Positions 53,512 through 55,728 of a stretch of 64,000 bases of DNA are shown here, one piece after another. The DNA is taken from assembly GCA_903884235.1 (NCBI GenBank), contig CAISEB010000012.1, positions 124,001-188,000 of the forward strand, in the 5' to 3' direction. Made by a program: the position numbers and the translations under genes. Origin of the DNA: an uncultured Pseudomonadota bacterium. Lineage in GTDB: Bacteria > Pseudomonadota > Gammaproteobacteria > Steroidobacterales > Steroidobacteraceae. Numbering within the stretch: position 1 is the first letter of the stretch; each line of letters begins with the position of its first letter. Under the pieces are notes generated by a model that was given only the letters and a program-made list of their open reading frames with translations, was not told the origin of the DNA and did not search any database.

Positions 53512-53880
53512 TCAGCGCGCCAGCGCACCCGTCGCGAGCACGAGATCCGCCACCGGGGTGCCACCGACCAGGTGCCCCTCGATGATGCGGTCGAGGTTCT
53601 CCGGGGTGCAGTGGCCGTACCAGGTGCCTTCCGGGTACACGACGGCGATCGGGCCCTCGCGGCACACGCGCAGGCAGCCGGCCTTCGTGCGCAGCACGCC
53701 CGCCTCGACGTCGACGAGGCGCCGTTCGCGAAGGCGCCGCTTCAGGTGCTCCCACGACGCCTCGCTGTCGGCGACCGGCGCGCACTTGCCGCCACCGACG
53801 CAGAGGAAGACATGGCGCCGTGCGCTGCTCAGATGCAGCGCGCCGAGCACGGTCGCTAGTTCGTCCACGGGAGTCGCCAT
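53512..53880 (-). CDS. Thioredoxin-like [2Fe-2S] ferredoxin
   Basis: This 122-residue protein has the cysteine pattern of thioredoxin-like ferredoxins: Cys27 and Cys33 (FLCVGGGKC), then Cys69 and Cys73 ([11 protein letters not shown]). The fold is that of the NuoE-like (2Fe-2S) domain; [20 protein letters not shown] is typical of the stand-alone family. It carries electrons; partners are not known. It is encoded on the same strand 39 bases after glnK and may be read from the glnK promoter. Confidence 0.9.
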
Positions 53881-53919
53881 GGCCGGGAGTGTACCCGGCC
53901 ACGGGGCCCGGGCGACGGA

Positions 53920-54312
<393 letters not shown>

Positions 54313-54316
54313 TCAT

Positions 54317-54332
54317 TGCAGCTTCCGTGCCG
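54317..54332 (-). promoter_or_regulatory. Sigma54 (-24/-12) promoter of glnK
   Basis: On the minus strand CGGCACGGAAGCTGCA has GG and GC dinucleotides with exact -24/-12 spacing. It matches TGGCACG-N4-TTGCW at all key positions except the first T and one T of the -12. The transcript would start near 54306, about 48 bases before the glnK ATG. Confidence 0.72.
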
Positions 54333-54383
54333 ACCTCGCGCCGGCCTCGAATCATGGACTTAGCAGCTCCGCGGCCTCGCATA

Positions 54384-54400
54384 CGCACCACCGTGGCGCG
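54384..54400. promoter_or_regulatory. NtrC-type binding site 1
   Basis: CGCACCACCGTGGCGCG matches TGCACCA-N3-TGGTGCA at 11 of 14 arm positions. Its centre is about 74 bases upstream of the -12 element of the glnK promoter, a normal enhancer distance. Confidence 0.6.
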
Positions 54401-54414
54401 ACGCGCGGCGACGA

Positions 54415-54431
54415 TGCCCGGCATTGGTGCG
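54415..54431. promoter_or_regulatory. NtrC-type binding site 2
   Basis: TGCCCGGCATTGGTGCG matches the NtrC palindrome at 10 of 14 arm positions, with one strong half (TGGTGC). Its centre lies 31 bases from that of site 1, about three helical turns, as in paired NtrC enhancers. Confidence 0.5.
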
Positions 54432-54495: not shown

Positions 54496-55728
54496 ATGCC
54501 AGACACGATCGCCATCGTCGGCGCAGGACACACGGCCGTTCAGGCCATCGACAGCCTGCGTCGCGAGGGCTTCGACGGGCGCCTCGTCGTGATCGGGGAC
54601 GAGCCCGGCCTGCCGTACCAGCGCCCGCCCCTGTCGAAGAAATTCCTCTCCGGCGAACTGCCGCTCGAGCGCCTGTCCCTGAAGCCCGCCGGGTTCTACG
54701 AGACCCACCGGGTCGAACTGCGCCTTGGACAGGCGGTGGAATCCATCTCGCTCGAGCGGCGTGCGCTCTCGATCGCGGGCGGCGAGGTGCTCGCCTACGA
54801 CCGGCTGCTGCTGACGACCGGCAGCGTGCCCCGGCACCTGACCGTGCCGGGGCATGAGCTCGAGGGGATCCATTACCTTCGATCGACCGCCGACGTCGAC
54901 CGGATCCGCGCCGGGCTCCAGCCCGGCGCGCGCGTCGTGATCGTCGGCGGCGGCTACATCGGGCTCGAGGTCGCCTCGACGTGCCGCCAGCTCGGCCATT
55001 CGGTCGACGTGCTGGAAATGACGGACCGGGTCATGAACCGCGTCGTCGCGCCCGAGATCTCGGCGTTCTTCGCCGCCGAGCACGTGCGCGCGGGCGTGCG
55101 GATCCACGTGGGGACGCTCGTCAGTGCGTTCGCACCGCGCGAGGACGCGCCGCAGCGCGTCGGACGGGTCGAGACGATGGAAGGGACGTCCTATCCAGCC
55201 GACGTCGTGATCGTCGGCGTGGGCGTCCTGCCGAACGTCACGCTCGCGGCGGCCGCCGGGCTCGCCTGCGAGAACGGCATCGCCGTCGATGAACACACGC
55301 GGACCTCCGACCCGCACGTCTGGGCCGCCGGGGACTGCACGAACCACCCGAGCCCGCGGTACCACCGCCGGGTGCGCCTCGAATCCGTCGACAACGCCTT
55401 TGAACAGGCGAAAACAGCGTCGATCAACATGCTTGGAGGGTCGATCATCCACGATCGCGTGCCCTGGTTCTGGTCCGACCAGTACGACCTCAAGCTGCTG
55501 ATCGTCGGCCTCAACTTCGACTATGACCGGGTCGTCGTCCGCGGCGCCCCCGACACCCGCTCGTTCAGCTGCTGCTACCTGCGCGGGACCGAGCTGCTGG
55601 CGCTGGACTGCGTCAACAACACCAAGGACTACATGGCGGCGAAGAAGCTGATCGCCGACCGTGCGCATTGCGATCCGGATCGACTCGCGGACCCTGCCGT
55701 CGCGCTGCGCGACACCGTGACGGGCTGA
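54496..55728 (+). CDS. FAD-dependent NAD(P)H reductase, ferredoxin/rubredoxin reductase type
   Basis: This 410-residue flavoprotein has the FAD fingerprint IAIVGAGHTAVQAIDSLR, a PYQRPPLSKKF segment, the NAD(P) fingerprint VVIVGGGYIGLEVAS and the second FAD motif VWAAGDCTN. This is the ferredoxin-NAD reductase layout of oxygenase electron chains (BphA4/ThcD-like). A ferredoxin partner gene is not adjacent; the thioredoxin-like ferredoxin on the other side of glnK is a possible but unproven one. The ATG at 54496 gives MPDTIAIVG. The NtrC-like sites in the shared spacer with glnK could also affect this gene. Confidence 0.93.
   Translation: MPDTIAIVGAGHTAVQAIDSLRREGFDGRLVVIGDEPGLPYQRPPLSKKFLSGELPLERLSLKPAGFYETHRVELRLGQAVESISLERRALSIAGGEVLAYDRLLLTTGSVPRHLTVPGHELEGIHYLRSTADVDRIRAGLQPGARVVIVGGGYIGLEVASTCRQLGHSVDVLEMTDRVMNRVVAPEISAFFAAEHVRAGVRIHVGTLVSAFAPREDAPQRVGRVETMEGTSYPADVVIVGVGVLPNVTLAAAAGLACENGIAVDEHTRTSDPHVWAAGDCTNHPSPRYHRRVRLESVDNAFEQAKTASINMLGGSIIHDRVPWFWSDQYDLKLLIVGLNFDYDRVVVRGAPDTRSFSCCYLRGTELLALDCVNNTKDYMAAKKLIADRAHCDPDRLADPAVALRDTVTG

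Follow-up and report, generated by a model that had tools for sequence, protein, structure and literature searches.

Does the stretch upstream of a P-II gene in a Steroidobacteraceae genome hold a genuine nitrogen-limitation promoter, and which P-II gene does it serve, if the next gene encodes a ferredoxin and not AmtB? We analysed a window of 64,000 nucleotides, which is the whole stretch of DNA under study, together with the rest of its genome and with related genomes (Table 1). We suggest, with high confidence, that an NtrC-activated, IHF-assisted σ54 promoter drives a stand-alone P-II gene under nitrogen limitation, probably together with the adjoining downstream ferredoxin gene. The reading is made from the sequence and rests on the matrix ranks and joint score of the elements, on how they are conserved, on their recurrence before glnA and the second P-II gene, and on the presence of the regulators in the genome.

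Table 1. Genes and control elements of the P-II locus, in window coordinates.
Feature	Position	Strand	Remarks
Thioredoxin-like [2Fe-2S] ferredoxin	53512..53880	-	39 bp downstream of the P-II stop
P-II nitrogen regulatory protein, 112 aa, stand-alone (glnB-like)	53920..54258	-	Tyr51 present; Pfam P-II, E 1.1e-33
-10-like hexamer TAGAGT, possible second (vegetative) start, weak	54284..54289	-	from the genus alignment
σ54 (-24/-12) promoter element, CGGCACGGAAGCTGCA	54317..54332	-	GG-N10-GC; 10/12 consensus letters
IHF-like site, AATCATGGACTTA	54350..54362	+	8/9 letters of consensus WATCAANNNNTTR; between the enhancers and -24
NtrC-like site 1, CGCGCCACGGTGGTGCG	54384..54400, centre 54392	-	11/14 consensus letters
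NtrC-like site 2, CGCACCAATGCCGGGCA	54415..54431, centre 54423	-	10/14 consensus letters
Divergent ferredoxin reductase (Pyr_redox_2 + Reductase_C)	54496..55728	+	shares the intergenic region of about 240 bp with P-II

The candidate σ54 element has GG and GC exactly 10 bp apart within the -24/-12 consensus and predicts a transcription start at about 54306. It ranks first among the 127,970 positions of the window when the scoring matrix is built from promoters of amtB-linked P-II genes. Consensus forms of the σ54, NtrC and IHF sites served as seeds. TGGCACG-N4-TTGC is the σ54 consensus as printed in the part of PMC3224663 consulted. From 30 matrix training loci 11 were dropped, having no P-II gene within reach, and 17 of the remaining 19 gave σ54 sites. 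These 17 training sites come from relatives, where they precede amtB-linked P-II genes, and from the other P-II gene in the same genome; they include two weak ones (L145 and L129, with candidates more than 230 bp upstream) and no ferredoxin-linked promoter. A σ54 promoter facing the divergent reductase was considered and rejected, as the best plus-strand GG-N10-GC of the intergenic region matches only 7/12 letters.

Upstream of -24 the two NtrC-like enhancers are paired and helically phased, at a centre-to-centre distance of 31 bp. From the -12 GC the centres are about 74 and about 105 bp away. The NtrC matrix is built from 13 sites that passed the NtrC cut, taken from amtB-linked P-II promoters and the same genome's other P-II gene. 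By this matrix site 2 is the second-best distinct place in the window and site 1 the fifth-best. One half-site of site 2 is weak, and this counts against the proposed promoter.

Could such elements be look-alikes that arise by chance in GC-rich DNA? Taken singly by simple consensus they come near expectation in this GC-rich window: σ54 alone gives 7 matches against 5.48 expected in the whole window and NtrC alone 3 against 2.08, neither of them significant. However, the trio, that is the σ54 site with two NtrC sites 31-32 bp apart, reaches a combined matrix score of 42.7, while the best trio in 120 random 64-kb windows of equal dinucleotide frequencies scores 30.0. By matrices trained on other promoters, the elements together are far beyond chance. 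The joint score, the conservation across species and the specificity within the genome, given below, all contradict a chance origin, to which we assign a practically negligible probability.

Orthologous loci were found through the downstream ferredoxin: 60 genomes were searched, the window's included, 37 gave a match and 30 loci were fetched. The P-II gene stands beside the ferredoxin in 20 of the 22 loci from the window's family and in none of the eight from other families. The trio with its 31-32 bp enhancer spacing is present in 17 of the 20 orthologous promoters (the window's included), against an expectation of 0 when each is shuffled 40 times, and such conservation at a fixed spacing already refutes a chance match. 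The trio can be lost, since three orthologues (L033, L036 and L038) do without it. These three P-II-ferredoxin loci lost the σ54/NtrC trio or never had it, and in L033 traces remain of the conserved block that separates enhancer and promoter. Of 80 named P-II loci, selected solely for their P-II similarity, no more than 15 pass the trio threshold, some of them with one very poor NtrC site; the arrangement is thus not general to gammaproteobacterial P-II genes. The P-II gene of Povalibacter uvarum (Steroidobacteraceae) is among the nearest named ones, from which the family of the orthologous loci was judged to be Steroidobacteraceae. In the cultured strain P. uvarum DSM 26723 (L047) the P-II promoter has this trio too, with a score of 39.5, although its 5.3-kb locus gave no match to the ferredoxin or the reductase. 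A literature search on such a promoter in Steroidobacteraceae returned nothing recognisable in the parts of the sources that it covered.

Between the enhancers and -24 the alignment reveals another conserved block, which holds an IHF-like element. At 8/9 letters or better it is found in 12 of 19 scored orthologous promoters against 0.35 expected; one of the 20 orthologous regions, having no σ54 candidate, was left out of this scoring. All 12 positive promoters carry it at an identical offset, and every one of them is within the window's genus. The same element precedes the other P-II gene and glnA of the window's genome, which also contains ihfA above the curated cut-off. The form AATCAA-N4-TTG is the IHF site as printed in the consulted part of PMC3224663.

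The preliminary description had called this stretch a complete nitrogen-limitation control region. Its exact GG/GC spacing in the -24/-12 element and its two palindromes of NtrC form, with their distances, are borne out, and the weight-matrix scan that it had proposed returns high ranks for both elements instead of the poor scores that it had named as refuting. The σ54/NtrC reading is one that the sequence strongly supports, whereas "complete" went too far, as the IHF-like site was overlooked and is absent from that account.

Is the control region shared with other nitrogen genes of the genome? A combined pattern of one NtrC site and a σ54 site 40-70 bp apart, written after both P-II promoters were seen and before that of glnA, so that it is a sharing test and not a blind search, has 3 matches in the 4.12-Mb genome; the control, the same pattern read backwards, has 0. 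The three matches precede the second P-II gene (contig C8), the window P-II gene (C12) and glnA (C31), and the control region is hence common to known regulon genes in the same genome. The pattern admits variants of the NtrC half-sites. Across 60 genomes, the window's included, it matches 40 times and its backward control twice; inspection by eye places at least 23 of these 40 matches just upstream of a listed P-II or amtB gene. The regulators are also in place. The genome has one copy of rpoN (Sigma54_DBD, 214.5 bits), an NtrC orthologue of 695 bits against a cut-off of 558.6, and an NtrB orthologue of 333.9 against 240, whose gene directly precedes ntrC. This NtrC (L005:1501-2862) has GSFTGA in the σ54-contact loop, of which the usual form is GAFTGA.

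We next consider which P-II gene the promoter serves. The preliminary description called it glnK and regarded its lack of amtB as the mark of an odd regulon unit, that is, of a glnK operon that had lost amtB. No amtB adjoins the gene, and the σ54/NtrC promoter is of the sort typical of glnK-amtB. Nevertheless, the name glnK is not supported. When 49 P-II proteins are placed in a tree, one branch (support 99/93) splits 20 ferredoxin-linked from 19 amtB-linked proteins, with 10 named rows in neither group, and the window protein does not group with the amtB-linked ones. It is also not encoded directly upstream of amtB, the next gene being that of the ferredoxin, and none of the 20 ferredoxin-linked P-II genes has amtB within 500 bp downstream (37 family genomes tabulated). 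The NCBIfam equivalog models leave the name undecided, because neither cut-off is passed (NF008111, 181.3 against 202; NF007946, 180.9 against 181). By tree and neighbours the gene is best named a stand-alone, glnB-like P-II paralogue, and "glnK" is the wrong name for it.

The search of the rest of the genome, which had been proposed as a check, found both the amtB and the second P-II gene. The single amtB of the genome and the second P-II gene both lie at contig ends, amtB on C28 and the P-II gene on C8. The 230 bp left over on C8 after the P-II match and the 108 bp on C28 before the amtB match add up to 338 bp; in 11 same-genus pairs from other genomes the gap between the two matches is 247-371 bp, and in 9 of these it is 327-371 bp. 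Judged by eye, C8 past the P-II gene seems to encode a protein start that is signal-peptide-like and Ala-rich, and C28 opens with an Ala-rich stretch running into amtB. As the contig-end spacing fits and both ends look Ala-rich, C8 and C28 very likely represent a split glnK-amtB operon, and it is apparently the second P-II gene that occupies the place next to amtB. Hence amtB is missing beside the window gene but not from the genome. With the fitting contig ends, the separation in the tree and the 20 ferredoxin-linked genes all against it, loss of amtB from a glnK operon is a highly improbable account of this locus.

The next gene does encode a thioredoxin-like ferredoxin, as had been proposed: its best match among solved structures is the thioredoxin-like [2Fe-2S] ferredoxin 1f37 (E 5e-17), and its Pfam score of 19.7 is below the cut-off of 24.8. 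A terminator scan found none between the P-II and ferredoxin genes, and with the gap of only 39 bp this makes it likely that the two are co-transcribed. A short perfect inverted repeat, GGCCGGG...CCCGGCC (53881-53900, minus strand), abuts the ferredoxin start codon, and by eye similar repeats occur in some same-genus loci. On the other side, 15 of the 20 ferredoxin-P-II loci contain a match to the divergent reductase. The reductase gene adjoins the σ54 promoter but is unlikely to be its target. Both genes, the ferredoxin downstream and the reductase upstream, are kept beside P-II across much of the family. The pairing of P-II with a ferredoxin is unusual against textbook operons, and to this extent the locus is the unusual unit that it was said to be; within the family it is regular, however, being kept in nearly all ferredoxin loci. 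The stable P-II-ferredoxin-reductase linkage is a testable lead and the sole unusual one here. We consider it improbable that in Steroidobacteraceae this arrangement exists because P-II or nitrogen status directly tunes the ferredoxin/reductase electron-transfer pair. If true, it would link nitrogen sensing to redox supply, a link not met in the parts of the P-II literature consulted.

We propose the following working of the promoter. The σ54-RNA polymerase would wait as a closed complex at the -24/-12 element. Under nitrogen limitation phosphorylated NtrC would bind both enhancers, which are separated by three turns of the helix and share one face of the DNA. IHF, bound between them and the polymerase, would bend the DNA, thus allowing NtrC to contact the polymerase. 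The NtrC ATPase would then open the promoter, with transcription from the predicted start. P-II acts via uridylylation at Tyr51, via control of NtrB and via control of glutamine synthetase adenylylation. The extra P-II could through these same routes strengthen nitrogen sensing.

Alternatively, the gene might be driven mainly by a σ70 promoter around the TAGAGT hexamer, the σ54 elements being real and giving only a boost. Tandem vegetative and σ54 promoters occur at glnA or glnB-glnA in other bacteria. The genus alignment keeps TA(G/C/A)AGT just before the P-II Shine-Dalgarno sequence, and the three orthologues without the trio live without it. On the contrary, a σ70 scan finds no match, a -35 cannot be recognised, and a mere 25 bp or so separate the end of the motif from the ATG. 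We therefore regard a mainly vegetative promoter as unlikely, though as the least unlikely of the rival accounts. The conserved -10-like hexamer may weakly suggest a possible second, nitrogen-independent start beside the σ54 promoter. A similar conserved TA(G/A)AGT is seen ahead of the divergent reductase.

By this proposed promoter a stand-alone P-II gene is firmly assigned to the NtrC regulon predicted for a gammaproteobacterial family that has been little studied. Together with glnA and the second P-II gene, which is probably part of glnK-amtB, it makes up a compact core regulon that can be read from the sequence. The control region itself is ordinary, an NtrC-σ54-IHF promoter of a known kind. 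It has the same anatomy as the glnA promoter of Xylella fastidiosa, for which the consulted part of PMC3224663 gives a σ54 site with a mapped, rpoN-dependent start and, upstream, an IHF site of the form quoted above as well as two putative NtrC sites. However, that promoter drives glnA and not a P-II gene, and it belongs to another bacterial family (PMC3224663).

NtrC control of a stand-alone P-II gene is likewise known in kind, because Caulobacter glnBA is so controlled (PMC10274813) and because glnB/glnK stand in the proteobacterial core NtrC regulon, together with glnA, amtB, ntrB and ntrC (PMC5343134). The window P-II gene fits this core regulon, in the consulted description of which Steroidobacteraceae are not named (PMC5343134). 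In Caulobacter, as the part of PMC10274813 consulted has it, the P-II gene (glnB) is under direct NtrC control, which is predicted here. There are differences, however: the Caulobacter NtrC has no GAFTGA and acts in an unconventional way, and the partner gene is glnA and not a ferredoxin gene (PMC10274813). Herbaspirillum seropedicae also has two P-II genes, one stand-alone (glnB) and one with amtB in the NtrC-dependent nlmA-glnK-amtB operon, according to the consulted part of PMC3023670. Its stand-alone glnB is constitutive (PMC3023670), whereas the stand-alone P-II gene of the window carries a full predicted NtrC-σ54 promoter.
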